Numbered from the stretch's first letter, positions 8,812 through 35,056 are shown. The stretch: DNA of 64,000 nt from Pelosinus fermentans JBW45 (GCF_000271665.2 NZ_CP010978.1:404501-468500); one strand, 5' to 3'. A program made the numbers and translations. The notes: a model not told the origin generated them from the sequence alone.

Positions 8812-8913
8812 CTAGGGAGGGCTTGACTTTAGTTAGCTGGTCTCGTGTCCCAATTCGATGTAGTAGTATCACACTTTCCACATGACTTGAGTAGGCAATA
8901 TTGTGTTCAAAAT

Positions 8914-11755: not shown

Positions 11756-11922
11756 ATTGATTAGTATGTTAGCCGTCTTGCCTTCGGGTGAGGCAGCTTT
11801 TTTTATATCTAAGTACTAGGAAGGAATTTGGAATTTATTGGAGAAGCATTAATGATTAATGTAGTAAATTGTATTTAAAGTAAATTAATAACAATTCATT
11901 GTGCAATACGAGAAGGAGGAAG

Positions 11923-13000: not shown

Positions 13001-13055
13001 TGGCGGTATTTACAACTTGCTTTCCTCCTGCTAATCATAATGTAGAAATATAGCA

Positions 13056-13202
13056 GGATTTGGCATTTATAAAAGAGAAGCTACCATAATAAATTAGTTA
13101 GTAAATTTATGGGCAGCTTCTCTTTTAGTTGACATAGCGATAAAAAGACAATCGAGAATTTATCGGTTTTAAATGGGACAAAGGAACCTGTCCCCATGTC
13201 CC
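13056..13202. repeat. ~130 bp dispersed repeat, copy D (complete)
   Basis: The best full-length copy. It starts AGGATTTGGCATTTATAAAAG. A terminator-like stem (GAGAAGCTACCATAATAAATT paired with AAATTTATGGGCAGCTTCTC) is followed by TTTT, then the GACATAGCGATA box, and it ends with the palindrome at 13,175-13,202. The strong internal hairpin plus the palindrome suggest a structured mobile repeat that also terminates transcription. Confidence 0.8.
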
Positions 13203-13380
13203 ATATGGTAAAAATATTCGCTATTTCTAAAGGCTTATTTGATATGTACTTTTTAAAAGGGAATATTTTTTGACGTGGGGGCTTGACTTTAGTTAGCTGG
13301 TCTCGTGTACCCGTGTAGCATCCACTCGTTTGGAAAGTAATATTGTGAGCCAAAGAACCGCCCCTTGACTCGTTATAGAT

Positions 13381-13463
13381 ATAGGATAGGGGGACGGAGG
13401 AAGTGTCCGAATGGAATTGTCTTTTGACTTTTAGTAAGACATATCCACCGTCCCCTTGTCTTA
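13381..13463. repeat. ~83 bp repeat, copy 1
   Basis: It begins AGGATAGGGGGACGGAGGAA and runs through TTTTGACTTTTAGTAAGACA to CCACCGTCCCCTTGTCTTA. The copy at 17,399-17,481 differs at only about three positions. The GGGGACGG start and CCGTCCCC end make it hairpin-prone. Confidence 0.85.
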
Positions 13464-13608
13464 CCTTAAAGCCGAACATGGTTGAAGGTGTAGAAAAAGG
13501 TTATTCAGTAACTACTCATCCGTAGGTAGTTAATGATTTGTCAGTTCAGATACTTGATATGGCAATTTTATATGAAGTATAGAAATGTAATTTGTGCAGT
13601 TATGACTA

Positions 13609-15217: not shown

Positions 15218-16642
15218 TTGATCATTACTGAAAAAGCAAAGGATATTTCCTTATTAGACAGTCAGAATCCTTTGCAAGATATATTAAAACCACGAAATGA
15301 GCGAATTAAAAAGTTTAATAAAGGGCACATTGTCCCAATCTATTGTTATCGATATATTGGAATTTGTGACAATGTAACAAATTACTTGGAAGAATTAAGG
15401 AACTTAGAATGTAATTTGAAAAAAACTTCTGAGCCATATCTTATCATAAAACAAGGTTTGACTAACTCCCATTCCAATGAAGAAATTGAAAAGGCAGTAG
15501 CGATTTGGGATCAATTTGAGAAATGGGAAAATGATAGCAAACGGAGCTATATAGAATTATATCGTATTGTTTGGGATACTAAGATCAGTAATACCACTGT
15601 CAATTGGACAATTAAACGATCGTTGTCCAAAATACTAGAGTTATTTGATGATATTGAAAAAAGCAAGAACCAGTCAATAAGAAGAAATTATGGATTGTCA
15701 TTAATTTTGTGGGTAAACTCTTATTTGAGTAGTTTATTTTCTGGAGAGATGAAGAGTAATTCTATACCTAAGTTCATTTTTTGGGGAGCAATAAGACGGA
15801 ATGAGGCTTATTTTTTTATATTCTTATCAATGCTAGGTTGTGATGCCTTATATATAAACGCTACAAATGATAAGGAATTTAATAGGATAGACCTACGCAA
15901 TACATATGTAAAATTAATAGAACATGACATGAGAATTGAAATTTGTGACTTCCCAAAATCAAAAGAAAGTAAGGTTGTAAGAGAATTCCCTGCGAAACAC
16001 ATATCACAGACTATTTCGCCGGATCCTGCACCTATAACACATACGAAGCATATGGAAAAAAGCTATGAAGAATTGGCTAAATTGTCTGATTCAATCGTAA
16101 TGGTTAATGTTTACGATGATGACCACGTACATTGTGGCAGTGGCTCTGGCGTAGTCATTGATGAAGATGGAACCATTGTGACAAATTATCATGTAATTAA
16201 GGATGGGAGTTTCTTTGGAATCCTGTTTGAAAATAATAAATCGGAGTATATCACACATACAATGATATCTAACAATGAACAAAAAGACCTTGCCTTATTG
16301 CAAATCGATTGCAAAACACGACCAATACCTATTAAAAGTAGCGATAGTTTAAAACGAGGTCAACAAATTGTAGCGATTGGTAGTCCGCTTGGGCTCATGA
16401 ATACGATTTCCGATGGTATAATTGCAGGTTTCCGAAGTTTTGATGATCAAAATTTTATTCAAATCACTGCCCCTATTTCTCCTGGTAGTTCAGGTGGTGC
16501 ATTACTCGATAGATATGGGTCATTAGTAGGTATAACTACTGGTGGATACACTAAAGGACAGAACTTGAATTTGGCAATTCCTAGCATTGAAATTACTAAA
16601 TTACTGCTCATTTCTAGTTTTAATAGACGTAGAAAAACATAA
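15218..16642 (+). CDS. YceG-like N-terminal domain fused to an HtrA-type serine protease
   Basis: A 474-residue protein with two parts. Residues about 1-260 resemble the YceG-like proteins found with TerD/TelA stress genes; the clearest stretch is PKFIFWGAIRRNEAYFFIFL with LGCDALYIN after it (about 188-216). Residues about 285-470 are a trypsin-like peptidase of the S1C/HtrA kind: GSGVVIDEDGTIVTNYHV with His325, QKDLALLQID with Asp357, and PGSSGGALLD with Ser425, all three catalytic residues intact. There is no PDZ domain, no signal peptide and no membrane helix, so it is probably cytosolic. The start (ATC read after GGGGGTAG, or a nearby TTG at 15,215) is uncertain. No ter genes adjoin it. 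A conditional protease in stress or phage response is inference. Confidence 0.75.
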   Translation: MIITEKAKDISLLDSQNPLQDILKPRNERIKKFNKGHIVPIYCYRYIGICDNVTNYLEELRNLECNLKKTSEPYLIIKQGLTNSHSNEEIEKAVAIWDQFEKWENDSKRSYIELYRIVWDTKISNTTVNWTIKRSLSKILELFDDIEKSKNQSIRRNYGLSLILWVNSYLSSLFSGEMKSNSIPKFIFWGAIRRNEAYFFIFLSMLGCDALYINATNDKEFNRIDLRNTYVKLIEHDMRIEICDFPKSKESKVVREFPAKHISQTISPDPAPITHTKHMEKSYEELAKLSDSIVMVNVYDDDHVHCGSGSGVVIDEDGTIVTNYHVIKDGSFFGILFENNKSEYITHTMISNNEQKDLALLQIDCKTRPIPIKSSDSLKRGQQIVAIGSPLGLMNTISDGIIAGFRSFDDQNFIQITAPISPGSSGGALLDRYGSLVGITTGGYTKGQNLNLAIPSIEITKLLLISSFNRRRKT

Positions 16643-17393: not shown

Positions 17394-17398
17394 ATAAA

Positions 17399-17481
17399 TA
17401 TAGGACAGGGGGACGGAGGAAGTGTCCGAATGGAATTGTCTTTTGACTTTTAGTAAGACATACCCACCGTCCCCTTGTCTT
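17399..17481. repeat. ~83 bp repeat, copy 2
   Basis: Near-identical to 13,381-13,463 in the same orientation. The two copies bracket the NmrA-like gene, the protease fusion and the small membrane protein, so recombination between them could excise about 4 kb. Confidence 0.85.
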
Positions 17482-17616
17482 ATCTTTTGAAGAAAAAATA
17501 GAAGAATTGATATAAAAACTGAAACAGACCTATGTCAGGCGATTGATCGTTTGATTGGTAAGTTAATAAAGACTTTTCGCCATTGCAACGTCCTAATGAA
17601 GAGTGTGTAACAAAAG

Positions 17617-17751
17617 TAGAATTTAACAGTTATAAAGAGAAGCTACCATAATAAATTAGTTCGTAAATTTATGGTCAGCTTTTATTTGATATGAGTGATA
17701 GAAACACAATTATCGATTTTAAATGGGACAAGGAACCTATCCCTACATCCC
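17617..17751. repeat. ~130 bp dispersed repeat, copy E
   Basis: A complete but diverged copy: TTATAAAGAGAAGCTACC, then TAATAAATTAGTTCGTAAAT, ATGAGTGATAGAAACACAAT, and a final palindrome at 17,725-17,751 with two changes in its right arm. Confidence 0.75.
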
Positions 17752-17810: not shown

Positions 17811-18011
17811 AGGTTATTTCTCTTTTTGCATAATTGACTTACGATGAATTTTTTGTAAGTTTTGGTTAATTCAGGGCGAAACATGCAGGACTCTAGTCCT
17901 GCACTAGAGAATTGGTAATATATTCATGGGAAAATTAAAGAAATTGTTATTGATTTTATAAAAATCTTGGTAGGTTATAAACTTTCATTGTTATTATGTA
18001 AGGAGAATGGG

Positions 18012-20966
18012 ATGAGTAGTAGAACAAAAGAAATCACAAAGTACTTCCGAAGTGCTGTGGCCGCTCAGTCAAATATGGGTATTGATTTTAAGAAAGATGA
18101 TTACCAGATTATTATCCCGCAAGAAGTTCTGCGGGGACAAATAAATCTAGCGACTTGTGAAGCCATTTTTGCCGATTCTAATAAAGACGCTGACGACGGT
18201 GAAAATGAAACGAGTAAAAAAACTGACCTTCATGTCATTATTTGTGCCAAGGCAATAAAAACCCAATATAGTGCAAACGCAAAGATACAAGATGAAATCG
18301 AAGAATTAACAGGAGTGTTTTATATCCCTGCCATTCTTAGTAGAACAGGCAAGTTGGCCTTTAATGACGGAGATAAGAAACTTCCCTGGTTTCCCAGAGA
18401 ATATCTGCAGCCTATGGTCGATCCTAAGCTGGCTATTGGTTATGAGGATACGGTAGATACGTTTGTGAGCGACCACGTAGACCAAGTGGAAAGAATAGCC
18501 TCGTGGTCTGATTATGCTGCTTTTTTCCAAGAATATTATGAAGCCGTAAGCGAATCGAAGTTTGAGCAAACGACCATTCGCAACATGGATAAGCAGGAGG
18601 CTCAATTCGAGTTAGAAGATCATATGTATGTTTTCCGGGATAATACCGTAATGTCCACTTACCATATACTCAATTTATACAACCATCTACAGAATAACGA
18701 TCAAACGGTAGCGCTGTATGAGAATTTTGTGTCCATGAATCAAGAAACAACCGTACCGCTTGTCAAAAATGATGTAAACACAATGCAAGTACATAGTGGA
18801 CAAATGGGAGGTGGATACCCTTTGTCGCCGTCGCAGCGGGAAGTGATGAACCATTTCAATGCGATGAAGGATGGAGAAATTCTGGCTGTAAACGGGCCGC
18901 CAGGAACGGGAAAAACGACTCTGCTTCAGTCAATCGTTGCTGATATGTATGTTAAACGGGCTATAAACCAAGAAAAAGCACCGCTGATCGTGGCTTCTTC
19001 AACGAATAATCAGGCAGTCACCAATATTATTGATTCTTTCGGGAAGATAGAGACAGCAGGGATCGCTAATTTAGAAGAAAGATGGATCGAGGGAGTCAAC
19101 AGTTTCGCTGCTTATTTCCCGTCAGGGTCAAAAGAGAAAGAAGCGCTGGAAAAAGGATATCAGTATACAAATCAAAAAGGGGAGTTTTTTGTTTCCAATG
19201 TGGATACAGAAGAAAACTTGGAAAAGTCCAAGAGTAAATTAATTCAAAGCTGCAATGCGTACTTTGAAACCGACTATCAAGACGTTATAGCTTGTCAGAA
19301 CAAGCTGCATGAAGAACTGCTATATGTGGAAAAGAGTAAGAATACCTTGCTGTCACTCGTTCAGGAGCTTAACGGATATGATTTGAACGGGCAATCCCTA
19401 GAAGCTCACATTGATACATTAGACGGGCAAATTGCAGACAAAGAGGCGATGATTTCTAGGCTTCGCCAGCGGGTCCATGAATGGGAAGTTTGTTACCAGA
19501 GGATTCCTTTGTTCTATAGACTGCTGAGATTCATCGGTAGTTTTTCCCGCAGAATACAAACAGAGTTTCGTTTGTTTATTAATGAGGAAGAACAAGGTTT
19601 TATTAATGAATACATGAGTCTAACTGAAATTAAAGATAAATACAGCCATCGCTATACGGAACAGAATGCTGCGCTTTCCCAACTCAAAAAGAAAAGAGAT
19701 GCACTGCAAGAAATCAAAAAGCGATACGACGACTTGGTGGATGAATGGAAGCAGCACCATATTATTCTGCATAAAGAAGATGATGAGAAGTATAAACTGG
19801 ACTTAGATTTTATCAACGATTTGCTTGATAAAAAGATTAGGTATGTAGAATTCTGGCTGGCCGTTCATTATTTCGAATGTCGGTGGGCAAATGGCGAAGA
19901 CACAGTATCAGAGAAGCAGAAAGGCAGGAATTTCAAAAATGTGCTGGATATGTTCTATAACCGTCTGAGCATGTTGACACCCTGCCTGGTTATGACCTTT
20001 TTCATGCTGCCCAAACAGTTTTTAGCCTTTGGAGATCAGAAAAAGTTTTTCCTTTACAATTATATTGACCTGCTCATTGTTGATGAAGCAGGACAAGTTT
20101 CGCCGGAAATTGCTGCCGGAGCATTTTCGCTCGCAAAAAAGGCGATTGTCGTTGGGGATATGTATCAGATTGAACCGGTCTGGAGTGTAAATCGGGCACT
20201 GGATAAAGCACTGGCACTGTCAAACGGCGTAATAGAGTCGTTGGATGATTTTGCGCAGATGGAGCAAAATGGATTAAACAGTTCGCGCTCCAGTGTAATG
20301 AAAGTGGCAGCTAAATCTTGCAAGTATGAGAAGTTTGGCAGTAAAGGCTTGTTTTTAAGCGAACATCGCCGTTGTTATGATGAAATCATAGAGTATTGCA
20401 ATGTATTAATTTATGGTGGAAATCTTCAACCACTGCGAGGACCGGGAAAACAGGACAAGAAACTTGCAATAAAGCAATGGCCGCATATGGGATGCAAGCA
20501 AATTCAATCAGAGCACTCAACGAAAAAAGGCAGCAGCCGGCTGAACCGGCTGGAAGCGGAGCAAATCGCGGCATGGGTGAAAAGCAACTTTACCTTTATT
20601 GAGGCGGCCTATCAGGGAAAAGAAGAAAAAAAGGAAAATCTGATCGGCATTATCACTCCTTTTAAAGCCCAGGTAAGTTGCATAAAAGCAGAATTGAAAA
20701 AGCAAATACCCCAATATGCTTCTTTGATTAGCGTAGGAACGATACATACCTTCCAGGGAGCGGACCGGAGAATTGTCATTTTATCAACGGTATACGGAAA
20801 TCAGGATGGATGCTTTTTTATTGATGCCAATGAAAGTCTCATGAATGTGGCGGTTTCCCGCGCCAAAGATCACTTTTTTGTATTTGGGGATATTAACTGC
20901 TTAAAAGATGACAGGGACAGCGCAAGCGGTTTGCTTAAAAGGCGTGTTGGTGCAGGGGGAATATGA
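18012..20966 (+). CDS. Superfamily 1 (Upf1/DNA2-like) helicase
   Basis: A 984-residue protein from ATG 18012, chosen for the AAGGAG 10 bp upstream over an earlier in-frame start at 17967. Motifs in order: Walker A GPPGTGKTTLL (295-305), Walker B/motif II DEAGQ (691-695), motif III-like VGDMYQIEPV, motif IV-like SEHRR, motif V GTIHTFQGADRR (909-920) and motif VI NVAVSRAKD (945-953). The N-terminal ~280 residues are of unknown type. A long charged insertion (about residues 400-630) predicted as coiled coil splits the first RecA domain. Such standalone Upf1-like helicases are frequent in defence islands. I see no nuclease motif in the protein. A small zinc-ribbon gene follows, and a scar of the same pair lies at 2,434-2,560. 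Confidence 0.85.
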   Translation: MSSRTKEITKYFRSAVAAQSNMGIDFKKDDYQIIIPQEVLRGQINLATCEAIFADSNKDADDGENETSKKTDLHVIICAKAIKTQYSANAKIQDEIEELTGVFYIPAILSRTGKLAFNDGDKKLPWFPREYLQPMVDPKLAIGYEDTVDTFVSDHVDQVERIASWSDYAAFFQEYYEAVSESKFEQTTIRNMDKQEAQFELEDHMYVFRDNTVMSTYHILNLYNHLQNNDQTVALYENFVSMNQETTVPLVKNDVNTMQVHSGQMGGGYPLSPSQREVMNHFNAMKDGEILAVNGPPGTGKTTLLQSIVADMYVKRAINQEKAPLIVASSTNNQAVTNIIDSFGKIETAGIANLEERWIEGVNSFAAYFPSGSKEKEALEKGYQYTNQKGEFFVSNVDTEENLEKSKSKLIQSCNAYFETDYQDVIACQNKLHEELLYVEKSKNTLLSLVQELNGYDLNGQSLEAHIDTLDGQIADKEAMISRLRQRVHEWEVCYQRIPLFYRLLRFIGSFSRRIQTEFRLFINEEEQGFINEYMSLTEIKDKYSHRYTEQNAALSQLKKKRDALQEIKKRYDDLVDEWKQHHIILHKEDDEKYKLDLDFINDLLDKKIRYVEFWLAVHYFECRWANGEDTVSEKQKGRNFKNVLDMFYNRLSMLTPCLVMTFFMLPKQFLAFGDQKKFFLYNYIDLLIVDEAGQVSPEIAAGAFSLAKKAIVVGDMYQIEPVWSVNRALDKALALSNGVIESLDDFAQMEQNGLNSSRSSVMKVAAKSCKYEKFGSKGLFLSEHRRCYDEIIEYCNVLIYGGNLQPLRGPGKQDKKLAIKQWPHMGCKQIQSEHSTKKGSSRLNRLEAEQIAAWVKSNFTFIEAAYQGKEEKKENLIGIITPFKAQVSCIKAELKKQIPQYASLISVGTIHTFQGADRRIVILSTVYGNQDGCFFIDANESLMNVAVSRAKDHFFVFGDINCLKDDRDSASGLLKRRVGAGGI

Positions 20967-21250: not shown

Positions 21251-21588
21251 GTAAGGGAAACACTTAAAAATTACAAGTAACCTGTTTGTTTAGACAGAAT
21301 TTAGTGGGACGAGGAACCTCTCTCCGTGTCCCTTACCTTTAATAATAGGAATAAGAAATTCGGAAGGGGTGGAAACGTCTGAAACCACTGAAAAAGTCTA
21401 TATTTCAAAAATTATACTAAAAGTAAAAGATTGCAATGGCGCTAAAATGCGCTGTAAGAATTTTTTTTCGTATGCTTATACATTCAGTACCCCTGAATTT
21501 TGTTTGTAATTTTAAATGTAATACTTTTAGTGGTTTCGAACCGTCATTTTGCTTCATAAATATTCGACGATAGGAGAGCTTCAAAGAA
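21251..21588. other. Intergenic region before the defence-like operon
   Basis: 338 bp with no gene. It holds a degraded REP-like palindrome at 21,306-21,332. AT-rich DNA with a possible stem is present around 21,385-21,545, where AACGTCTGAAACCACT is nearly complementary to AGTGGTTTCGAACCGT. The operon promoter presumably lies here. Confidence 0.5.
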
Positions 21589-23022
21589 ATGAGAAAGGCG
21601 TATGATACTATTCTTCAATCTGAGGTAGCTGCGGTTTTAGCTGCCAAAAGTGGCGGGTGTGAGCCGTATCGTTACGAATGTGCCAATTGTGGAGAAGAGG
21701 TGTATGTTGCCGCTCGCTACAGCACCAACATGGTCCCTCATTTCAGGCATCTTAGCGGAAATAATGATGTCGCATGTGAGAACTATCTTGGGCAGTATGG
21801 CGCGATAAGTATAGATTCTCGTTCAAGAAAAAGCAATCGTGAAAGAGTAGAATTCCATTTTGAAAATAACAACAAAAAGTTTTATTTAGAACTTCGCTTC
21901 AGCGCAGATGAAATTCAGTACTACGGGCAGGAAAATGTTGATTTCGAGATTAGAATGAACGCTTCAGGGCCTCCGTTCTATATTTTGCCAATCAATAACA
22001 TTCATTTTGCGCCCGATGCTCCTACACCGATTTCCTTGTACAACTTCTCATTTTGCTATTATTTATCCAATACTCTTACTGACACAAGACGGAAATACGA
22101 TTTTTTGAAATCTGGGAATACGCCTAGCTTTTTCAAGTTACAAGGTAACGATAGTGATTTCAAAGCTAAATTAGTACGCGGTACAGTTTTGTTTACTAAT
22201 GTTCAGTATTTCGTTGTATTCCAGAGCAAATATTCAACTCCACAAGGTATTCGCTTTCCTGATGCAATACAGGTAAACGAGACGTTTCGTTTCGAGACGA
22301 TGGGATTAAATTTCTTAGGTATGACTTTATCAATACAGAAAAAAACAGCGGATATAGACGAGCTGTTGAAAACTTGGGGTTACATATTAGAGGAATCTGA
22401 AATGCTCACACTACTATGGCCCCCTGCGCCAGTGATTGATGATGTTAGTGTTGTAACTTCAAATGAAGCTTTTGTATTTACGAGTTTCGAGTTGCAAGCG
22501 CATGGGAACATTAATGTTCATTCGACGGATATTTTGCGAGTCAATCATGGTATTTCTAGAGTATTGGTTAAACAAAAAACAAAAATATTTAAGAAAAATG
22601 CTGAGATTGTTATTGATAAGTTCAAATCGCCTATTGACGCTTATAACCTGATTACTCTATTTGAATTTGCAGCAGTTAGTTTCTCTATTCCTAATTATGG
22701 CACATGGTTTCTTTTCAACCATTCAGGAGTTAGTCCTTTGAAAACTGGACAGGTTGTTTACTTGACACCGGAAAGTGTGATTAAACAGTATGAGCACAAC
22801 TATCTTACCCAAATTATTTATCCGTGTCGTCAAAAGGAATTGGTTAATGAAAAATTGCTTGACGATATTCTCATGCACTGCAAGCGAACGGAAACACTTG
22901 AATTTAATCAGTTTATGTCGCTGGAACTGAGCAATACTACTTCTCAATACATTGATAAATGTAGCGTTTCGGGTTCTATTAATTCGGTCGCAAAACAATT
23001 TATCGTGGAGGGGCTGTTATGA
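21589..23022 (+). CDS. CoiA-like N-terminal zinc protein, first gene of the defence-like operon
   Basis: A 477-residue protein. The first ~70 residues match the N-terminal zinc-binding part of competence protein CoiA and related nucleases: C31-A-N-C34, then H51-F-R-H54 and C63, with Cys24 nearby. The rest is beta-rich and unrecognised, and I do not see the CoiA nuclease motif in it, so it may be a DNA- or substrate-recognition subunit. AGGAG lies 11 bp before ATG 21589. Its TGA overlaps the next gene's ATG (ATGA), indicating translational coupling. It is the opening gene of a five-gene operon ending in a helicase and an adenine methyltransferase. Confidence 0.65.
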   Translation: MRKAYDTILQSEVAAVLAAKSGGCEPYRYECANCGEEVYVAARYSTNMVPHFRHLSGNNDVACENYLGQYGAISIDSRSRKSNRERVEFHFENNNKKFYLELRFSADEIQYYGQENVDFEIRMNASGPPFYILPINNIHFAPDAPTPISLYNFSFCYYLSNTLTDTRRKYDFLKSGNTPSFFKLQGNDSDFKAKLVRGTVLFTNVQYFVVFQSKYSTPQGIRFPDAIQVNETFRFETMGLNFLGMTLSIQKKTADIDELLKTWGYILEESEMLTLLWPPAPVIDDVSVVTSNEAFVFTSFELQAHGNINVHSTDILRVNHGISRVLVKQKTKIFKKNAEIVIDKFKSPIDAYNLITLFEFAAVSFSIPNYGTWFLFNHSGVSPLKTGQVVYLTPESVIKQYEHNYLTQIIYPCRQKELVNEKLLDDILMHCKRTETLEFNQFMSLELSNTTSQYIDKCSVSGSINSVAKQFIVEGLL

Positions 23023-24602
23023 AGTATCTTTCTCAACTAACCGAAGATGAAGTGCGCTATATTTGTTTAGTTGTGCCTTATCAGCACACGAAAGATTATT
23101 TTTCAAAAAATCCAGAGGAGTTTGCAAAAATTCATCCGGGATTTCGAGGTAATAAGATTTCAGAAGCTACGGCAAGAAAACTGCTTTTCGATTTTAGCAG
23201 CAAACGCTTTATTTCATATTTCATTGAGAAACATATTAGTGATTGGCTTTCTCAGATAAAAAAACACTACAATAACAGAATTGAAACTGGTGAAAGCAAA
23301 GATGTTGCTTTCTTAAACACATTACCGTTCTGTTTTTTCACTGAGAACGTTGGTCTGTACTTTAAACTTATCAATGAAGAATATTCTGAAGAATACATTG
23401 CGCTAATGGGTGCAGCTATAAAATCTATTAAAGAAGCGACTGACGAACAAGACAGATTAAGCAAAGAATTGAAAGCCAGAGATTCGGATATTAGGAATCT
23501 CCATACTGAATTTGATTCTATAAACTTAGATTTGGATAGAACCAAAGCTAAGTTAAATAAGCGGTTGTCGGAGATTGACGCTTTCAAAATCAAACTTATT
23601 GACATTGAAGAACTCAGGATTGCCGCTTCGAGGGATAAACAAAAAATTGATTCTCTCGAAAATCAAATTATAGCTTATGAGGAAGCAATTAAGGGGCTAA
23701 AAATAGAGTTGGACGAAAGCAAAGTCAGCAGTAGCCAACTCGAAGAACAAATACGGGAAGAGTTGGAAAGACAACAAACTGTCAAGTGGAATGAACAGCA
23801 ATCAATAAAGGCATCAAAATGCCCTAGCGATATTGATGAGTTCAAAGACTATCTGGGTTACAATCTTAAAGATATCGGTGTGCCTAATGACGCATATTGT
23901 ACTCTATTGAAAGAGCATTTAAGTAAAATCCTCTTTCAGGGTATTCCCATACTTGTTAATCGCTCAACAGGCAACAATATTATGAAATGTGTTGCAAACA
24001 CGCTAATCGGACAACCAACGATTAAAACACTTATTTTTAACAAGGATATCTCGACTGAAGAAGTCAGCCATTTCTTATCATTGGGCGCACGTATTGTGTG
24101 TTTGGATAACTTTCTCGGGAATTTTAACGAAACAGAATTGCTGCCTTTGTTTGAAAAATACAGAGATAAAATCATCTTCTTGACCGTTGCTTATGATAGA
24201 ACAATCAATTACATATCAAAGGAGTTTTTGCGGTACTGCCATTATCTCAATGTCAACCGAATCAAGGCGTTAACCGCCAACGCACATTTAACTGAAGACC
24301 CGTCAACAATAGTGGAAGTCGATTTTGATCCTCAGTGGGCGGGTGTAGAAAACCGGTATTCTAATTTATTAAGAGAAGTGTTGCGAGAATTAGGCTTCCC
24401 TCAAAGTCTGATTGAGAAAAAGTGCACCACAGTATTTAACGAACAAGATTTATGCCAATTACTGGTATTTGATGTTTTACCATACTGTGCGGACGTATTG
24501 CAAATTGCCCCATATAATACATCCGAGCGATTACTCAAATATGCCGGAGATGATGGAAGATGCCCATGCAAAAAACTGCTTAAGGAGTGGTTCGCGCTAT
24601 GA
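23019..24602 (+). CDS. Coiled-coil protein with possible degenerate NTPase domain
   Basis: A 527-residue protein, ATGA-overlapped with both neighbours. Residues about 1-130 are globular, with basic and aromatic residues. About 138-265 are a long Glu/Lys-rich coiled coil (for example SKELKARDSDIRNLH and EEQIREELERQQ). From about 270 on is an alpha/beta domain. Within the last part, GIPILVNRSTGNNIMK stands where a P-loop would be, and ARIVCLDNFLG and DKIIFLTVAYDR look like Walker B and sensor strands, as in AAA-type ATPases. The Lys of Walker A is not in the usual place, so activity is doubtful. I recognise no named family. It may be a scaffold or loader for the helicase. Confidence 0.55.
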   Translation: MKYLSQLTEDEVRYICLVVPYQHTKDYFSKNPEEFAKIHPGFRGNKISEATARKLLFDFSSKRFISYFIEKHISDWLSQIKKHYNNRIETGESKDVAFLNTLPFCFFTENVGLYFKLINEEYSEEYIALMGAAIKSIKEATDEQDRLSKELKARDSDIRNLHTEFDSINLDLDRTKAKLNKRLSEIDAFKIKLIDIEELRIAASRDKQKIDSLENQIIAYEEAIKGLKIELDESKVSSSQLEEQIREELERQQTVKWNEQQSIKASKCPSDIDEFKDYLGYNLKDIGVPNDAYCTLLKEHLSKILFQGIPILVNRSTGNNIMKCVANTLIGQPTIKTLIFNKDISTEEVSHFLSLGARIVCLDNFLGNFNETELLPLFEKYRDKIIFLTVAYDRTINYISKEFLRYCHYLNVNRIKALTANAHLTEDPSTIVEVDFDPQWAGVENRYSNLLREVLRELGFPQSLIEKKCTTVFNEQDLCQLLVFDVLPYCADVLQIAPYNTSERLLKYAGDDGRCPCKKLLKEWFAL

Positions 24603-25618
24603 ATGATTTCTTAATTGCTATGTCAACTGACATGGACATTAGCCGTTATCAGAGCGAATCTGATGACTCATTCATCTTCAGACTTTGCTATTCGGCGTTA
24701 GGACAGTGGTGCCTTCGAACAGCTCAAAATTTGTCAGGAGGAATTGCGGGAACAACCAAACACAATCAGACAATCGTGTTGAACGAATTGCTACAGCGCT
24801 ATTCAGAACTGTTTCCTCGCGTTGCTAACAGATTCATCGATGCCAATAATCAGCAGGCGAGCCTGCCTGTTCATATACGGCGGGTATACGAAGAAACGGG
24901 TTATCTTTTAACTGACGATAACAATCGGAATCAATTAGCCAATTTCGAGCGAAGCATTACAATTGGAAATACTTCTTTGTTTTTTGGCGTTCTCAATATG
25001 GCTTTTACCATGAATGGGTTTGGCGTATTTTCAACTCCCACATTATATAAGTTTACAGCACAAGAGTTTTTAATCAGAGATACCTTAACATGCGAAGAAT
25101 ACTTTCAATCACGATTTGATGTTATAGATTTCTATGAAAGAGACATAAACATTGACGAACTAGAATTTTTCAATCCGCTATCGAACAATGTCCCTTCATT
25201 ATCTTGGTCGAAGAAAATTGAGACAGATTGCTCAGTAGCCCGAAAAAGTGAGATGGGCCCGTTTTATAGAGTGATGCGCGAATCTGATGCCACACTGTTG
25301 TTTGCTGAAGAACCCATCGAACCACAAAATGATAGCTTAATATCGCATGAATACAGGAGGTTATATTATGCGCTCAAAGCGCACTATGGTAATCCCCTGA
25401 CTGCAAGAGTTGTAAAGAAGGATATTAAATACTCTGAAATAAAAATTCACGGACATTTACCAAACCGAGAATACTATTATTTGCTGCTTTTGTCGTGGCC
25501 AGTAAATCACGCTTTTGACAAAGTTAACTTTTTAGTCAAAAATTGCTTTGTTGCAGAAATAATAGCTACTTTAAAGAATATTGGAATTGACGTTAAAGGA
25601 GGAAATGCAAATGCGTAA
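24599..25618 (+). CDS. Unknown subunit of the defence-like operon
   Basis: A 339-residue protein from ATG 24599, which overlaps the previous stop (ATGA). An in-frame start at 24587 is less likely. There are no membrane segments and no motif I can name. The first half is helical and polar; a central segment ([20 protein letters not shown]) is hydrophobic; a short region [12 protein letters not shown] lies near the C-terminus. Its end overlaps the helicase start by eight bases. Tight coupling on both sides implies that it works in fixed ratio with its neighbours. Confidence 0.5.
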
Positions 25619-28600
25619 CTTAAACGGAGTTCAACAATACTATCAGGCAATCCGTGATAGATTGAAAAACTACATAAAATCGGATTACTTAGCCAATAGT
25701 GAAACCCTACTCCTTTATGTCGATGACCTTCTGGGAGAGCTTTGCTCTGAGCATACCAATATCGCCCGCGAGCCGTATATCGAAACTTCGGCGTCGTATA
25801 AAAAAGTACATAATGGAATTAAAAACTCACAGCATATCGAACAGGGCGTAAAAGAATCGTTGTTGAAGCTTGTTAAGGAGAACCTCGGCATATTTTCCGA
25901 TCCATTTGAACACCAAGTTAAAGCGCTGGAGTATTTTTCGTCTGGGAGAGATTTATTTGTTTCCACTGGTACGGGTTCTGGTAAAACAGAATGCTTTCTC
26001 TGGCCGATTATAGCCAAGTGTTTTGATGAGGCCAAAAACCGTCCTGCTGGATTCAAAAACGAGGCAGTGCGTACCCTAATCATTTATCCAATGAACGCCC
26101 TCGTGTCTGACCAACTCGCCAGATTCAGGAAGATTATTGGAAACGATAAGTTCCGAGAAATTTTCACGACAGATACACACGCTACGCGTATTCCGCATTT
26201 CGGAATGTATACTGGAAGAACACCTTATTCTGGTGATGCAAAACCAGCAAGCAGCCGTGAATTGGCGAATACATTCCGCGAAAATTATTTAATAGATGAA
26301 ACCGCTGATTCAGAAACCAAACGGCGACAAACCAACAATGTAAACGGGCTCAAGAGTATCAACAAATACCCGGCCAGATTCGGCGAAAACGGACTCCAAG
26401 TTTTTATTGAAAATTTGGAAAAGAACATCCACAAGCCAACTCCGTATGATGCTGAACTCATAACTCGATTCGAGATGCAGGAATGTCCGCCGGATATTCT
26501 GATTACAAACTACTCCATGCTGGAGTATATGCTTATGCGCCAACGCGAAGCAAACATATGGGATAAAACAAAGCAATGGCTTGATGAATCCAACGACAAT
26601 AAACTTCTCATTGTTTTAGATGAAGCGCATATGTACCGCGGCTCAGCTGGTGGAGAAATTGCGCTGTTATTGGAGCGACTGTTCTATCGTGTGGGTATTA
26701 CAATCGATAGAGTTCAGTTTATTCTTACAACCGCAAGTATGCCATTAAATGAGCAAAAAGCGATAGATGCTTTTTACTCTGGTCTCACGGGGAAAGAACC
26801 GACTTCTTGTGAGTTCTTATTCGGTGCAAAGGAGGCTGTCCCAGATGAATTGGAGGTGAACACGGATATTGATGCATTGGCATCGATTGGTTCTGACCAA
26901 GTGCAAGGTGAGGGGATCGCTGTTCGAATCAAAGATTTTGCTAAAGCTGTTTTTCATTGCAGCTTGCCGAACGACATTAGTCAGAGTGAAGCTCAAGAAT
27001 GGCTCTACGATAATCTTCCGAAATATCAAGCGTTTGTTTTGCTGAATAAACTATGCCGTGATGGCGCAAAATCATATAGCGAGATTAAGGAAACACTATT
27101 TGGAGACAGTGTGAATGCTGAAAAAGCCCTTGATGCTTTATTGGCATTGGTTTCTCTTGCCGCAAAGAACGGAAACATCCTATTCCCAGTGCGCCTTCAT
27201 ATGTTTTTGCGTGGGTTGCAAGGTCTTTACGCGTGCTCTAATCCGAAATGCACCTGCGGGAAGTATTCCGAAAGCGAAAAGCTTCCATTGGGTAAGGTCA
27301 TCTCTATCCCAAAATATAAATGTGAGTGCGGCGGCAGGATTTATGAACTTGTTAATCATATAAAATGTGGGGCATTATATCTAAAAGTTTATCTTCAAAA
27401 AAACGATGGACAACCATATTGGTATGTCTTCCCTGAACGTGGCTTGAACGGTGACGCTAATTCGCTCAAAGAAATGCTTCTCTATGTTGTTCCCAATAAC
27501 TATCAAAAGGGGAAGAATGACAAGATGGGTGCGCTTGACCCCTTAACAGGCAAACTGTATACGTCACCTCAAAACGATGAAAGTTTGTTAACCGTTATAT
27601 ACAATGATAAATTCGATGGTAAGAAACAATCATATACTTTTAGTGTTTGCCCAAAGTGTAAGAAACCTATGCCGCTTAAAAAACCGGTTGACTTAGCCAC
27701 CAAGGGCAACATCCCATTCTATAACCTTACAAAGGCGCAGTTTGAATTGCAACCCGCCAAGTCGGAACTGATTAATCAAGGAAAAAAGGTCTTACTATTC
27801 TCGGATTCTCGTCAGAACGCTGCAAAACTTGCATTGGATTTGTCAAAATCATCTGATGCAGATGCGTTTCGACAGGCAGTTATGCTTGCGTCGCTTCTTT
27901 TGCAGGTTGACGGTAAAGAACATTCTTTATTCGATTTATATTCGGCATTTTTGGATGTTTGCATACAAAACAACCTTGCTTTTTTCAGTGGAAGAAGCAA
28001 AGTGAAGTTTGAAAACGACAAGCGTTTGTTTAAGTATAAAAAAGGTACAACTGAACGACGCGGAAGAACCATTGACTATACGGAAATAGCTGCGGAGTAT
28101 CAACCTCTGCCGGATGACTACTACGAGCAGTTGCTAACTTTCTTTACAGAAAGCCCTCGTTCATTTAAAGATATCGGTATTGGTTTTTTAGCTCCTGTAT
28201 CTTCTGCTCTTGACGATTGCGTATATGATTTAGAGGATGACGGATTAATCGTTGATAAAGATATTATTTATCAATTGCTTGTGCTATTATTCTGGGATGT
28301 TATGGATGAAAGCGCTGCACTTGGGGAAACGATTCAAGATGATATTCGAAAAGGTTTACCTGGACGAAGCAAGAGCCAGGCGTTTGGGTTGAACTTCAAT
28401 TTTTCAAACGAATTGGACAAAGGTTTTATCCAGCGAATCCAAGAACTACTAAAGCTTGATAGTATTTCTATTGCAAAAATCGTAGATAGAGTGCGCGACT
28501 TGTTTTTTGCTTCCTCATCAAATAACCGTTATTATATCAAATTATCCTCAGTGAAAATCGAGTTTGCAGATAAAGATTTCACATGGTATCGCTGTGTTAA

Positions 28601-30818
28601 ATGCGGGAAATTATCTCCATATAAAATAGGGGATTATTGCGGTGTTTGCTTTGATTCAACGGAGTTGGTGCTTATTGATGAATCGGATTTGTCGCGCTTT
28701 GAATTTTGGCGGATACCAGTTCTCAATGCTTTGAACAAACTCGAAACTATCCATACGATTGACACAGAGGAACATACCGCACAATTATCCCATAAAGAAA
28801 CCAGAAGCGATACTTGGAGCCGCACAGAAAAATATGAAATGCGTTTCCAAGATATTAATGCAGGCGAGAACGGCGAGGAATCTATCGATGTATTGAGTTG
28901 TACAACAACTATGGAGGTCGGTATTGATATTGGTTCACTAACCGCCGTCGGACTTCGTAACATACCTCCCATGAGAGAAAACTATCAACAACGTGCAGGG
29001 CGTGCGGGGCGTAAAAATGCCGGCATCTCTACTATCGTTACATATGCTTCCGGAGGAACGCACGATAGCCACTACTTCTTGCATCCCGATGAAATGATTT
29101 CCGGCTCTCCGCGTAAACCTTGGATAAACCGTTACAATCGCAAAATTAGGCAGCGTCACATAAATATGCTGGCGCTGAACGGCTTCATGTCGACTCCAGA
29201 TATGAAAACGCAATTCGACGGTATTGCTGACATTGGAATAATATCGTTCTGTGAAAAGTTCGGTGAAAACTTTATTGCGTATGCAAAATCCATAGATGTA
29301 TCAACTGATGTTACTATTTTTCAATTTCGAGAAATATGCCAAAGCGTTTTAGTTGAAGGTAAGCGCAATGAGTTTATTAACAATGACAAAGAGACCTCGG
29401 CTTTTGATGTATTTTATCGTGAAGGCTTTATACCGTCATATTCGTTCCCAAAGAATGTTGTAAGGTTTTTCGTAGAGAAAGAATCTGAACGGGGCAAGAA
29501 TGCTCCTCGTGATATCAATTATGCTCCCGAGAGAGACATCGCCATAGCGCTCAGTGAGTATGCGCCAGGAAGGTTCGTTACGATTGATAAAAAAATATAT
29601 AAAAGCGGTGGCATTTATGCTAATCCTCGACCAAGAGGTTTTGAGAAAAACCAAGCCGAATACTATTTTGAGAACAAAGATTATCATAATGACATTCACA
29701 TCTGTTCTGAATGCAACTGGTTTGGTATTGATCAAGAAGAATTTCCTAATATGCAGTGCCCATATTGCAGTGCCCCAATTGAAAACAAAAAAATGTTACG
29801 CCCATGGGGATTTTCTTCTGTTAGAGGGGATGAAGTTAAATTTGAGGATGAGGATGAACAGTATACCTATGCGGAAGCACCCTACTATTCTTATGTTCCG
29901 GCAGACACAGAAATGGTTCAATTTGGTCATAGTAATATCCGTTATGCTAATCTATCTGATAAAAAAGTTTTAACCGTTAACATGGGTAAAAGTAAGAACG
30001 GGTTTAATGTCTGCAAAAAGTGTGGAGGGGCCGAGGTTGCAGATGATAAGAACACTGGAAGATTCTCATTTTCACAACCCTATCACGATAACTATTTATG
30101 CCGTCATGAAGGTACGGTATCTACCAATATATGCTTAGGATATGAATTTTTGACGGATATGTTCATGCTAGATATCTCTTATGATTTTGCAAAACTTGTT
30201 GGGAACAAAAATGCAGAAGAAAAGAGTATTCTTCGGGCGGCGGTGACGACGCTACATGAAGCACTTAAAAAAGCTGTTTCGCTTGTACTAGATATAGATT
30301 ACAATGAGATAAGCGGAGGATGGCGCCCGAGGATTACGATCGACGGTGATTCTCACATAGAAATGTTTTTCTATGATAATCTCACCAGCGGTGCGGGTTA
30401 TTCATCGTTAATTGGCTCAATTCTTGATAAGGTGCTTGAACGCGCCAGAATAATTCTATCAGAGTGTGAGTGTTCACGAACCTGCAAAAACTGCCTTGAT
30501 AATTTTTGGAACCAGAGGAATCATCAGTTGTTTGACAGGCATTTAGGTTTGCAGCTTCTCAACTATGTTCAGTTTGGACAGTTACCCGATGAATACGACA
30601 AAGGCGAGCAACAAGCGTTGCTTGCTCCATTGCAAAAACTCATTTCAGAAGATAGTGAGACTCTCCAGCCTACTTCTAAAATTGGATTTGAAGTTATGCC
30701 TGCTATTCTAAAGAAACCAGAAAACACAAGTACGAGGATTTTCCTAAATCCCTATGATTTGTCGTGTTGGTTGCCCAACGCATTTATGACATATAGAAAC
30801 TTAATAAGCAAGAGGTAA
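25611..30818 (+). CDS. Giant DEAH helicase with zinc ribbons and DUF1998-type C-terminus
   Basis: A 1,735-residue protein from ATG 25611 (AGGAGG at 25,597-25,602). Superfamily 2 motifs: Q-like [11 protein letters not shown], Walker [10 protein letters not shown] (119-127), motif Ib-like [18 protein letters not shown] (337-340), TTASMPLN, then the second RecA domain with [27 protein letters not shown] (from about 1098) and QQRAGRAGR (1126-1134). Several Cys pairs suggest zinc ribbons ([23 protein letters not shown] with CGVC, CSEC with CPYC). The C-terminus has the DUF1998/MrfA-type cluster C1619, C1621, C1625, C1628. Helicase plus DUF1998 in one chain is typical of DruE (Druantia); DISARM splits these between DrmA and DrmB. 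It is the core of the operon. Confidence 0.85.
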
Positions 30819-30822
30819 AAAT

Positions 30823-31662
30823 ATGGCTAAATCACTTTCGCCGCTTCGCTATCCGGGCGGCAAATCAAAAATCTACGAAAAGGTTAAAACTCTTATTGAA
30901 AGCAATGCGATGGGGAATAGAACTTACGTTGAACCTTTCGCAGGTGGATTCGGTATAGGGATTGCTTTGTTGTACGACAACATTGTGCAATCCGTCGTAT
31001 TGAATGATTTCGATTCTCATATTTATCACTTTTGGCATTCAGTGCTTTACAGTACAGATGACTTACTTAGAAAGATCACAGATACGCCCATTACTATTGA
31101 TGAGCGAGAAAGACAAAAGGCAGTGTATAAAGACTGTGATGCGGATGCTTTGAGCGATGGCTTCGCAACATTATTTTTAAATCGCGTGAACTTTTCTGGC
31201 GTTATTAAAGGCGGACCAATTGGCGGAGTAACGCAGAGCGGCGCATATAAACTGGATTGCCGATTCAACAAAGAAGAGATAAAAAAGAAAATTGCGAATA
31301 TAGCTTTGCTGAAAAATCGCATTTCGCTGTATAATTGCGATGCAAGTGATTTGATTATTAACCGTTTACAATTTCTGAAAAATACTGCGTTTTTCAATAT
31401 TGACCCCCCATACGTTATTAAAGGGAGTCAACTTTATACAAATTACTTCAAAGAGTCTGACCATAGAAATCTTGAACAGGTAATAACTGAACACTTAAGG
31501 GATATTCCTTGGATTATTACTTATGATGATTGCGAACTAATACGAGATATCTATAGGCAATACTTTATGACTGGGTACGATATTCAGCATAACGCCAGAT
31601 TCAGTGTTCGGGGGAAGGAATTGGTTATTACGAAGATCTCGGAAGATTCTTTTGTTTGGTAA
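30823..31662 (+). CDS. D12-class DNA adenine-N6 methyltransferase (Dam-like)
   Basis: A 279-residue protein. It opens with LSPLRYPGGKSK (residues 5-16), the D12-class SAM-binding start, followed by YVEPFAGGFGIGIAL (motif I) and the catalytic motif IV D194-P-P-Y197. The C-terminal WIITYDDCELIRDIY is typical of the Dam family. It starts four bases after the helicase stop, with the ribosome site inside the preceding gene (AGAGGTAA). In an operon with a DUF1998 helicase it most plausibly marks self DNA, as DrmMI or DruM do. No cognate restriction nuclease lies in the operon itself. A PD-(D/E)XK protein lies 0.9 kb downstream. Confidence 0.9.
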   Translation: MAKSLSPLRYPGGKSKIYEKVKTLIESNAMGNRTYVEPFAGGFGIGIALLYDNIVQSVVLNDFDSHIYHFWHSVLYSTDDLLRKITDTPITIDERERQKAVYKDCDADALSDGFATLFLNRVNFSGVIKGGPIGGVTQSGAYKLDCRFNKEEIKKKIANIALLKNRISLYNCDASDLIINRLQFLKNTAFFNIDPPYVIKGSQLYTNYFKESDHRNLEQVITEHLRDIPWIITYDDCELIRDIYRQYFMTGYDIQHNARFSVRGKELVITKISEDSFVW

Positions 31663-31867
31663 AGTTGTCCGAGTTGCATGGATGTACAGGGGGTGGGGAC
31701 GAATGATTGGGGGAAGCTTGGTGTCAGTTCGTGTGCAAAGCAGAGGTGCATCATTAATTTGATAATAAAATGCTTTAAATGATCATCTATTTTCAAAAGA
31801 AATCTACCTTTTCATGTCGAATATTCTTAGTATCAATTGATGCGAGACGATAATTTGATGGGCTTAA

Positions 31868-32576: not shown

Positions 32577-33467
32577 TTGGGGGAAATTCCATTTGAGGTT
32601 AATGAGCAAATAATACAATGCATCGGTAGGTGCTTTCACCTTAAAGACATGGTAGCTTCATTTATGATCTCAGCAGGTGTTCACAAACAATTAGTAGATA
32701 AGTATAGGCATGAATACAAATTTGTTTGGGCACGTCGTGTTTTAGAGGAATTGAGTGAAAGTGAAGATGGTAGAGTAATTCAAAGAAAAATATTGACCAA
32801 TCTTTGTAAACTAAGAAATCTTCCTGACTCTAATGTAGCTGATAGAAATGCTGGACTGGATGCTCTTCGTAATCTTAAAGATTTGGCGTCTTCAAATCAA
32901 TTATATGTTGAAGAGCAAAAAAAACAGGCAGATGTAAGGCGTGATCTTGCAGAAAATAGAGTCAAAATTCTTGAAGAGCGGGCTAATAGATTAGAATTTT
33001 TGAAAAGTGATTTTGGACGACATGTTACAAGTGATGATAGGCAGGCAGCAGGATACGCTCTTGAGGATATAATTAAAGAGTTATTTTTCGTATATGATCT
33101 TGATTATCGCAAATCGTATAAAACTGAAACGCAACAAATTGATGGTCATTTTCGCTTTGAGGGCTTTGATTATATAGTGGAAGCAAAATGGAAAAAAGAT
33201 ATGCCAAATGAACAAGAAATTGCTGGCTTTAAACAGAAGATTGATACTAAACTTGATAGTACAAGAGGAGTGTTTATATCAATTCCGGGATTCCGAGATA
33301 GTGTTATTCGCCAGTTTAGTGGTCGAGGTGCAAATATTATCTTTTGGTCAGGGCAAGATTTGTATGTGGTGCTTGATGGGAGAATGCATTTGCATGATGC
33401 GCTTAGAATTAAAATTGAAAAAGCTGCTCAAGAAGGTATAGTAGATTATCATTTGCCAATGGCTTAA
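32577..33467 (+). CDS. PD-(D/E)XK restriction-endonuclease-like protein
   Basis: A 296-residue protein with a TTG start at 32577 (GGAGGAG at 32,563-32,569). Residues about 1-110 are helical; about 110-145 form a short coiled coil (DVRRDLAENRVKILEERANR). From about 155 is a Mrr-like nuclease fold with the active-site pattern D189 ... E202-A-K204 (QIDGHF, then YIVEAKW), and GRGANIIFWSGQDL near the end, where Mrr-type proteins carry their last strands. It probably cuts DNA. It lies alone between the helicase/methyltransferase operon and the XRE genes and may be a further defence gene of the island or part of that system. Confidence 0.75.
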   Translation: MGEIPFEVNEQIIQCIGRCFHLKDMVASFMISAGVHKQLVDKYRHEYKFVWARRVLEELSESEDGRVIQRKILTNLCKLRNLPDSNVADRNAGLDALRNLKDLASSNQLYVEEQKKQADVRRDLAENRVKILEERANRLEFLKSDFGRHVTSDDRQAAGYALEDIIKELFFVYDLDYRKSYKTETQQIDGHFRFEGFDYIVEAKWKKDMPNEQEIAGFKQKIDTKLDSTRGVFISIPGFRDSVIRQFSGRGANIIFWSGQDLYVVLDGRMHLHDALRIKIEKAAQEGIVDYHLPMA

Positions 33468-33656: not shown

Positions 33657-33696
33657 ATAAGCCAGGAATATCGTTTTTACGATTTTCCTGGCTTAT
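33657..33696. terminator. Bidirectional hairpin overlapping the end of an XRE gene
   Basis: ATAAGCCAGGAATATCGT (33,657-33,674) pairs with ACGATTTTCCTGGCTTAT (33,679-33,696) with one mismatch and a TTTT loop. The XRE stop codon (33,677-33,679) sits in the loop. It can serve the minus-strand gene and convergent transcription from the nuclease side. Confidence 0.8.
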
Positions 33697-34063
33697 TTCG
33701 CTTATTAAGTTCTTTAGCACGCTTATATAATTTAAGTTCGACTATATCAAGTATGGCTTGTTTATCTTCATCCGTAAGGGGAGAGCCCTCAAACGTTAGT
33801 CCATTCTGTGCAAGAATTTTTTGTAAGTCATTAAGATTTTCTACTTTAGGAGTTAAATGGTTATAAAAGAAATCTATAGAGACTTCGAAGTACTCAGCCA
33901 TTTTTTTTATGAGCTCAGGACTGGGAGTCCTAACATCGGTTTCGTACTTTGATAATGATGGATATTCTATTTTTAATATATCAGCTAATTCATAACGTGT
34001 TAATCCCTTTGATTCTCTAAGTTCAATGATTCTGCTACCAAAGGCGATTTTGTTAACAGCCAT
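33677..34063 (-). CDS. XRE-family regulator (1 of 4)
   Basis: A 128-residue protein with a Cro/CI helix-turn-helix at about residues 10-65 (SKGLTRYELADILKIEYPSLSKYET) and a short C-terminal tail (TDEDKQAILDIVELKLYKRA) of the type found in phage-like repressors. It is on the minus strand like the next two XRE genes. No prophage structural gene adjoins it, so it probably belongs to a remnant or to the defence island. Confidence 0.85.
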   Translation of the reverse strand: MAVNKIAFGSRIIELRESKGLTRYELADILKIEYPSLSKYETDVRTPSPELIKKMAEYFEVSIDFFYNHLTPKVENLNDLQKILAQNGLTFEGSPLTDEDKQAILDIVELKLYKRAKELNKRNKPGKS

Positions 34064-34083
34064 AATATCACCACCAATATAAA

Positions 34084-34132
34084 TGGGCTGTCTGGCTACG
34101 AGTTTATTGAAATTCGTAACGGGATAGCCCTT
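34084..34132 (-). terminator. Hairpin downstream of the second XRE gene
   Basis: GGGCTGTC (34,085-34,092) and TACGA (34,097-34,101) pair with TCGTA (34,114-34,118) and GATAGCCC (34,123-34,130), giving an interrupted stem between two minus-strand XRE genes. Confidence 0.5.
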
Positions 34133-34151
34133 GTATTTGTTTCATTATTAT

Positions 34152-34517
34152 TTACTTGTTATATTCAACACCGTGCTTTTCAAAGAGGAACTTTTTAAAG
34201 TCTTCTAAGGACTTACGAGCTTCTTCAGGAAGATTCTGAGCTGGATCCTTAGTGTCATAGGCATTGGTTGTTTCAATATTTCTTTTATTTGGCGATAGTC
34301 CAAGTAAATAGTCTGTTGTAACATTAAATCGTTTAGAAAGCTCTATGATAATCGTTGCATGTGGTAATCTACCGCTTTCCCACTGGGAAATAGTTGATTT
34401 GCCCATACTAAACCAATTGCCGACATTTTCTTGCAATAAGCCATATTCTTCTCTTAAATCACGTAATCTTTTTCCAAAGATAACATTAGTATTAGCAGTA
34501 CTCAACTTATTCACCAC
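34152..34517 (-). CDS. XRE-family regulator (2 of 4)
   Basis: A 121-residue protein. The helix-turn-helix lies at about residues 15-70 (LREEYGLLQENVGNWFSMGKSTISQWESGR, with the second part as recognition helix), followed by FNVTTDYLLGLS and an acidic tail. The likely start is GTG at 34,517, next to a second GTG. It resembles phage or ICE immunity repressors. Confidence 0.85.
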   Translation of the reverse strand: MVNKLSTANTNVIFGKRLRDLREEYGLLQENVGNWFSMGKSTISQWESGRLPHATIIIELSKRFNVTTDYLLGLSPNKRNIETTNAYDTKDPAQNLPEEARKSLEDFKKFLFEKHGVEYNK

Positions 34518-34579
34518 GCTAAAGTTATAATATCATTTGAGGATAGATAAGAGAAATATTTATTGGTTAGTGTAGCTAA

Positions 34580-34921
34580 TTATTTTTTACTACGTTCCTT
34601 AAACTGAATATAAGATTCAATTTCCTTACGGTCTGTATCTGTAAGGTTATTAAGTCTGCCCAATAAATCTAGATTTTCTTGTGATAGTCCTGTTGTTTGT
34701 AGTGCAGGGTTAATAAAGGAACCTATTCTATCAAGTAGATAATCAATGCTAACTCGAAAATAGTCAGCGATAACAACTACAGTCTCTAATGACGGCTGTT
34801 TCTTGCCGGATTCATAATAAGCAATTGTACTTTGAGAAACGTTTAATAGTTTACCTAAATCTTCTTGGGTCATATTATTATTTGTTCTTAGTTTTTGGAG
34901 GTTTTGTCCAAACTGCTTCAT
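34580..34921 (-). CDS. XRE-family regulator (3 of 4)
   Basis: A 113-residue protein starting at ATG 34921 (reading MKQFGQNLQKL), with AAGGTGAT upstream; the longer frame to 34,993 would run through the operator region. The helix-turn-helix (NNMTQEDLGKLLNVSQSTIAYYE) is followed by DYFRVSIDYLLDRIG. It is divergent from the fourth XRE gene, with three TATGACTAAAAGT-type sites between them, so it is the likely repressor of that promoter pair. Confidence 0.85.
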   Translation of the reverse strand: MKQFGQNLQKLRTNNNMTQEDLGKLLNVSQSTIAYYESGKKQPSLETVVVIADYFRVSIDYLLDRIGSFINPALQTTGLSQENLDLLGRLNNLTDTDRKEIESYIQFKERSKK

Positions 34922-34950
34922 TACAATCACCTTCCTAAAGACTATTATAA

Positions 34951-35056
34951 TATGACTAAAAGTAATATTATAAAAATTATAACCAATTGTCATAAAAATA
35001 TTGACATATGACTAAAAGTGATAATATAATAAGGTCATAAAATGACTATTAGTTAT
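34951..35056. promoter_or_regulatory. Operator cluster between divergent XRE genes
   Basis: Imperfect palindromes of the form TATGACTAAAAGTnATA occur at about 34,951-34,970, 35,007-35,023 and 35,039-35,056. A fourth copy lies at 35,269-35,285, over the end of the next gene. The arms TATGACT and AGTTATA differ from a perfect inverted repeat by one base. The arrangement of three sites between two divergent helix-turn-helix genes is that of a CI/Cro-style switch. Confidence 0.8.

Follow-up and report, generated by a model that had tools for sequence, protein, structure and literature searches.

Do five adjoining genes in the genome of Pelosinus fermentans JBW45 form a defence system of their own, or are they a variant of a known one? 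The genes lie at positions 21589–31662 of a stretch of 64,000 nucleotides (GCF_000271665.2, NZ_CP010978.1:404501-468500; this whole stretch is here referred to as the window), which belongs to a genome represented by a complete 5.38-Mb contig. An initial annotation, made from the sequence alone, had regarded them as a candidate undescribed defence system. Our results point in another direction, and we consider it quite probable that the locus is a DruA-less branch of the type I Druantia lineage that has recruited a D12 adenine methyltransferase and is spreading horizontally as a compact, methyltransferase-guarded cassette of ten kilobases.

Layout and identity of the five genes

The locus consists of five open reading frames, all on the plus strand and overlapping or nearly abutting. 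They are druB (21589–23022, 477 aa), a gene in the druC position (23019–24602, 527 aa) that shares an ATGA overlap with druB at 23019–23022, druD (24599–25618, 339 aa), joined to the preceding gene by a further ATGA overlap at 24599–24602, druE (25611–30818, 1735 aa), which overlaps druD by 8 bases at 25611–25618, and, after a gap of 4 bases, a gene assigned to the D12/Dam family of N6-adenine DNA methyltransferases (30823–31662, 279 aa). The starts of druD and druE were taken at the ATG codons at 24599 and 25611; in the list of open reading frames they run upstream to GTG at 24587 and TTG at 25581, respectively. All of the junctions by which the five same-strand genes had been annotated as coupled are present in this list.

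At the level of sequence, both the gene identities and the operon order can be assigned. Protein 1 matches the PADLOC model DruB1 (PDLC00003) with 839.1 bits over 477 of 477 positions, and protein 3 matches DruD1 (PDLC00008) with 578.1 bits over 338 of 338. Since these profiles fit over the full length and with high scores, close relatives of both proteins must have been seen before. Canonical forms are more distant. In profile–profile comparison (hhalign), for which the Escherichia coli and Pseudomonas putida proteins served as references, with that of N. watsonii added for DruD, DruB reached E=1.9e-5 (equalled by none of 150 column-shuffled controls) and DruD E=0.012 (equalled by 1 of 150). 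The N-terminus of DruB carries a CoiA-like Cys/His zinc cluster, YECANCGEEV...HFRH...GNNDVACENY (21673–21786, plus strand, residues 29–66), whose Cys and His residues are invariant in an alignment of five orthologues, while the rest of the protein has no known domain. The annotated CoiA-like zinc protein is borne out in its N-terminal cluster, but the Pfam models CoiA_N and DUF7830 both score below their cut-offs. An AlphaFold2 model of DruB, built with four sequences, was unusable (predicted local distance difference test, pLDDT, 34), and no relative of this variant DruB was detected in viral contigs or on plasmids.

The helicase gives the strongest match, with 2003.8 bits to DruE1 (PDLC00013) against 642.8 for the type II, 609.9 for the type IV and 534.7 for the type III (DruE3) model. 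It is a superfamily 2 (SF2) helicase of the YprA/MrfA family with Pfam domains DEAD, Helicase_C and MZB/DUF1998 (PF09369, a zinc domain) and seven CxxC pairs. The SF2 motifs, zinc ribbons and C-terminal DUF1998-type cluster attributed to it are all found, among them the Walker motif TGTGSGKTE (25965–25991, residue 119), Walker B DEAH (26619–26630, residue 337), QRAGRAGR (28989–29012, residue 1127) and the DUF1998 cysteine cluster (30465–30494, residue 1619), all on the plus strand. The protein is 33% identical to the E. coli type I DruE and collinear with it over the whole length, with every CxxC pair and the short tail in register. The 107 residues that follow the DUF1998 cluster are the counterpart of the C-terminal tail of canonical type I DruE, a YprA-family helicase whose tail is described as an inactivated Vsr (PMC12458937).

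The 527-residue protein is the most difficult of the five. It has an N-terminal segment with KIxPGFR, a long coiled coil (23388–23798, plus strand, residues 124–260) and a C-terminal alpha/beta domain. The coiled coil is supported by coiled-coil matches and is modelled as a helix by AlphaFold2, where block-mean pLDDT exceeds 70 over about residues 151–250; it is the sole reliable part of a model whose overall pLDDT is 55.5. In PADLOC the protein matched coiled-coil models only, including DruC1 (PDLC00006, E=0.0064), for which the match covers just the coiled coil. We consider this protein likely, though not proven, to be a strongly diverged DruC, because its position, length class, coiled coil and weak profile signals agree when taken together. 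In the C-terminal half, for which a structure prediction had been proposed beforehand, pLDDT is about 30–69, and a Foldseek search of the PDB with this poor model gave nothing significant (best E=0.35). The NTPase-like nature that had been suggested for the protein finds no library match in its favour, and the structural model is too poor to judge it. This half does contain GxPIxVNRxxG, RIVCLDN and IIFLT, at intervals resembling those of Walker A, Walker B and sensor 1, and no NTPase or other match was obtained there with Pfam at E<=10. A degenerate AAA+/McrB-like domain may be taken as a lead, and it agrees with published work according to which the CnuB GTPases of Druantia I/II are inactivated. 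Relatives of neither the variant nor the canonical DruC were detected in viral contigs; a search for canonical DruC in Desulfobacterota gave no match, but its positive control stayed silent too.

These assignments largely remove the ground for an undescribed system. Two of the three proteins annotated as unknown match DruB1 and DruD1 over the full length, the helicase is DruE1, and what had been seen as unknown accessory subunits are DruB1, DruD1 and, between them, a protein that occupies the place of DruC and resembles it in architecture. A genuinely new system, neither Druantia nor DISARM, could still be argued from the missing DruA, from the 527-residue protein without a confident database match and from the distance of DruB and DruD to the E. 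coli forms (profile E of 1.9e-5 and 0.012). We regard it as highly improbable, as the full-length DruB1 and DruD1 matches and the 2004 bits of DruE1 contradict it for three of the four core genes, the B-C-D-E order is that of type I in E. coli and P. putida, and DruE is collinear throughout.

Absence of DruA and movement of the cassette

Canonical type I Druantia comprises DruABCDE (PMC13316683, PMC7251935). DruA (PF14236, DUF4338) was found neither in the genome of the window nor in the genomes G092, G140, G724 and G503, while the control, a P. putida plasmid, gave 272.6 bits. Together with the locus maps, this search shows no druA at any locus of the branch; in the plasmid relatives of DruE whose neighbourhoods were inspected, DruA/DUF4338 is nearby, and likewise in E. 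coli. One match in genome G779 was dismissed, being a fusion of a DruA domain with a transposase (L044, 520–2577) on another contig; this DUF4338–transposase fusion indicates that DruA matches alone are no evidence of Druantia.

The last gene is a D12 adenine methyltransferase, as annotated, with 75.6 bits to MethyltransfD12 (PF02086) and the motifs RYPGGK and DPPY, the latter (motif IV) at 31402–31413 on the plus strand. Its nearest solved relatives are 7m6b (E=5.5e-13) and DpnM (2dpm, E=2.9e-5), and in PADLOC it matches PD-Lambda-5_B with 339 bits as well as generic MTase_II models. Four genomes each hold a single copy, always inside the cassette, and in all four complete Bacillota cassettes it sits about 3–14 bases from druE.

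The exact composition druB-druC-druD-druE-methyltransferase was found in four complete Bacillota loci from four families, namely the window and genomes G092, G724 and G140. The conservation of the five-gene order that had been put forward as a check was thus observed in three other genomes; together with dN/dS values (ratios of non-synonymous to synonymous substitution rates) of 0.11–0.46 per gene, it argues that the arrangement is not due to chance. Within the class, the profile of its DruB matched 3 of 381 genomes, and that of its DruC gave three strong loci among 399 genomes sampled across the phylum. In the phylum to which locus L003 belongs, 395 genomes were scanned for DruB, with L003 as the sole match, and a scan of genome contigs added metagenome-assembled genomes labelled Bacillota, Deltaproteobacteria and Candidatus Auribacter. 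Loci L002 and L004, being truncated or rearranged, were left out of scoring for the fifth gene. In L002 (3636–8057, the Auribacter assembly), the druE frame is broken after about 1470 codons and followed by an asparagine-synthase-like gene, which reflects a rearrangement or an assembly chimera.

The strongest evidence on the composition of the unit comes from nucleotide comparison. By blastn, the window is 89% identical to G092 over 21546–31685, which we take as the core extent of the mobile cassette (plus strand), and 88% identical to G724 over 21499–31767, with unrelated genes on both sides in each case. The shared blocks begin 43–90 bp upstream of druB and end 23–105 bp downstream of the methyltransferase gene. 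The three hosts represent different families, and that of G724 falls outside the class. Because the identity ends at the cassette edges, the flanks are unrelated and the host families differ, recent horizontal transfer of a unit of precisely five genes appears to be the simplest reading; nothing else argues as strongly for the methyltransferase, and against DruA, as part of the unit. The proposal that the adenine methyltransferase is an integral gene of the defence unit accordingly finds support in its place inside the shared-identity block and in all four complete Bacillota cassettes. An empty-site comparison with the congeners G071 and G076 failed to define the island edges, the right flank being conserved and the left not collinear.

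Among three of the four cassettes, dN/dS was 0.33–0.46 for DruB, 0.26–0.41 for DruC, 0.13–0.20 for DruD, 0.11–0.12 for DruE and 0.13–0.23 for the methyltransferase, values which indicate that all five genes are under purifying selection. The rates differ nonetheless, with dN of DruB and DruC about 1.5–2.8 times that of the other three, and identity to the more distant G140 is 42% for DruB, 45% for DruC, 62% for DruD, 78% for DruE and 67% for the methyltransferase. These data also bear on another account, in which an ordinary type I Druantia lost DruA and the neighbouring methyltransferase is an unrelated passenger, such as an orphan or a PD-Lambda-5-like enzyme. The type I names that the subunits already bear in PADLOC, the PD-Lambda-5_B and generic MTase_II matches of the methyltransferase and the one related locus without this gene (L003) would fit such a history. 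We nevertheless hold it to be unlikely: DruA is missing from every locus of the branch and not from this one alone, the methyltransferase is a single genome copy inside the shared-identity block and present in all four complete Bacillota cassettes, and it has diverged in step with DruD and DruE.

Proposed mode of action and genomic neighbourhood

By analogy with known Druantia, the cassette would have antiphage activity. In the scheme that we infer, the methyltransferase would mark host DNA as self, and the fast-evolving DruB, with its zinc cluster, and DruC, with its coiled coil and C-terminal domain, would recognise DNA that is unmarked or specific to phages, and would then activate DruE or load it. 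The helicase would then translocate on the invading DNA and unwind it as the effector step, acting alone or with host nucleases, and so block replication. Target recognition is probably a task of DruB and DruC, which are pointed to as the subunits that may carry it because they evolve fastest. As none of the cassette proteins was recognised as an active nuclease, a replication block or recruitment of host nucleases seems likelier than direct cutting, although a cryptic nuclease in DruB, DruC or DruD is possible. According to a review (PMC12904381, citing Ojima et al. 2024 for the second point), Druantia is classed with DISARM as methylation-discriminating, and phage Druad1 promotes methylation of phage DNA and thereby evades type I Druantia. 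A more specific version, to which we give somewhat less than an even chance, is a subtype in which the D12 adenine methyltransferase functionally replaces DruA, so that the whole would be a methylation-guarded restriction-modification machine with a helicase as effector and no nuclease that can be recognised.

Some points weigh against a methyltransferase-guarded, DruA-less branch of type I. The homology of DruC leans on position, architecture and marginal profile scores, its N-terminus being equalled by 2 and its C-terminus by 6 of 150 shuffles. The L003 locus (Desulfobacterota) has B-C-D-E, and no methyltransferase was found in its genome assembly; since the gene is consequently not universal in the branch, it may be an accessory gain. 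Moreover, the nearest mechanistic studies concern type III Druantia, whose parts are a DruE nuclease and DruH and not B, C and D.

A natural form without DruA, in which B, C, D and E are maintained by purifying selection next to a dedicated methyltransferase, bears on whether DruA is dispensable and on whether Druantia reads DNA methylation. In addition, annotation pipelines that require DruA, or have no model for this DruC, may overlook such systems or assign them to the wrong type.

Upstream of the cassette, at 17967–20966, lies a gene for a 999-aa superfamily 1 helicase that matches Mokosh MkoC with 979.5 bits over profile positions 1–962 of 1136, the last 170 or so positions being uncovered. 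This gene and the cassette look like a small defence island. A YceG-like domain (PF14266, 105.8 bits) fused to a trypsin-like protease (PF13365, 100.4 bits) is encoded further upstream at 15218–16642, possibly a further defence or conflict gene. Downstream, a 296-aa open reading frame (32577–33467) has a motif VEAKWKK resembling PD-(D/E)xK nucleases and a weak PADLOC candidate match (PDC-S02, E=0.012); three minus-strand genes for XRE-type repressors come next (33677–34993). The window also contains intergenic palindromic repeats with the motif GGGACAAGGAACCTGTCCCCGTGTCCCA and a separate 93-nt pair of 96% identity, dispersed at 7391–7524, 8714–8813, 11660–11758, 13037–13212, 17618–17744, 13375–13467 and 17394–17486. 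For one copy a strong RNA fold is predicted (z=-3.4), and the repeats gave no match in Rfam. Congeners carry them in many copies, and in G092, which is from a different family, short matches occur close to the cassette. A similar stretch, GGGACGAGGAACC...GTGTCCC, is located at about 21307–21337, just 5' of druB.

Comparison with known systems

DISARM (DrmA, DrmB, DrmC, DrmMI/MII) resembles the cassette in combining a YprA-family helicase and DUF1998 with a DNA methyltransferase. The locus might hence be seen as DISARM-like methylation-linked restriction, with the methyltransferase as main specificity subunit and DruE as a DrmAB-type helicase in a functionally fused DISARM, and the grouping of both systems as methylation-discriminating in the review (PMC12904381) is in line with this. 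Even so, we think it quite unlikely. Helicase and DUF1998 are fused in the cassette, and the DrmA match amounts to about 40 bits confined to motif regions, as compared with 2004 bits for DruE1. The reading fails as family membership, though it may apply as a functional analogy. The DISARM PLD nuclease is absent, as had been annotated, with no match to DrmB or DrmC in PADLOC among the matches listed. The methyltransferase resembles PD-Lambda-5_B (339 bits), but the other cassette proteins and the tested neighbours show no match to a partner model among the matches listed.

Among the Druantia types, type II (DruM-DruF-DruG-DruE), or type IV CoCoNuT, shares with the cassette a DruE, a DNA methyltransferase and a coiled-coil protein. 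However, the methyltransferase here is a D12 N6-adenine enzyme without a DruM match, no cassette protein matched the DruM, DruF or DruG models at E<=1 among the matches listed, and DruE scores 643 bits with the type II model against 2004 with type I. For type IV CoCoNuT (Druantia I/II sensu Bell 2025), an inactivated McrB-like GTPase (CnuB homologue) with a coiled coil is characteristic; the coiled coil is present here, and the C-terminal half gave no NTPase match in Pfam, a pLDDT of about 30–69 and a best Foldseek E of 0.35. Type III was rejected on the missing DruH match, the DruE scores (534.7 for DruE3 against 2003.8 for DruE1) and the 107 residues after DUF1998, and Druantia type IV on the missing DruF/DruL match and the scores of DruE4 (609.9) and DruE1 (2003.8). 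On haloarchaeal plasmids, two DruE loci (L010 and L036) show a gene for DruA/DUF4338 that runs in the opposite direction, two middle genes in place of B-C-D, and a protein that matches DruD only in part; they are another differently composed relative of Druantia I.

The composition druB-druC-druD-druE-methyltransferase had no description in the literature searched, which leaves out most subscription papers. Type I is reportedly DruABCDE as defined by Doron et al. in 2018, and the cassette is not filed as canonical type I because DruA was searched for and is absent. Unlike the type I systems of E. coli and P. putida pKF715A, it also has a D12 adenine methyltransferase as fifth gene, its DruB, DruC and DruD (477, 527 and 339 aa) are strongly diverged, and its DruE is 33% identical to that of E. 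coli. The initial view of a related but differently composed system thus holds for the composition, without DruA and with a methyltransferase, but not for a system separate from type I. As in type I, the gene order is B-C-D-E, a coiled-coil protein stands between B and D, DruB, DruD and DruE are of type I by profile, and DruE is collinear down to its short C-terminal tail.

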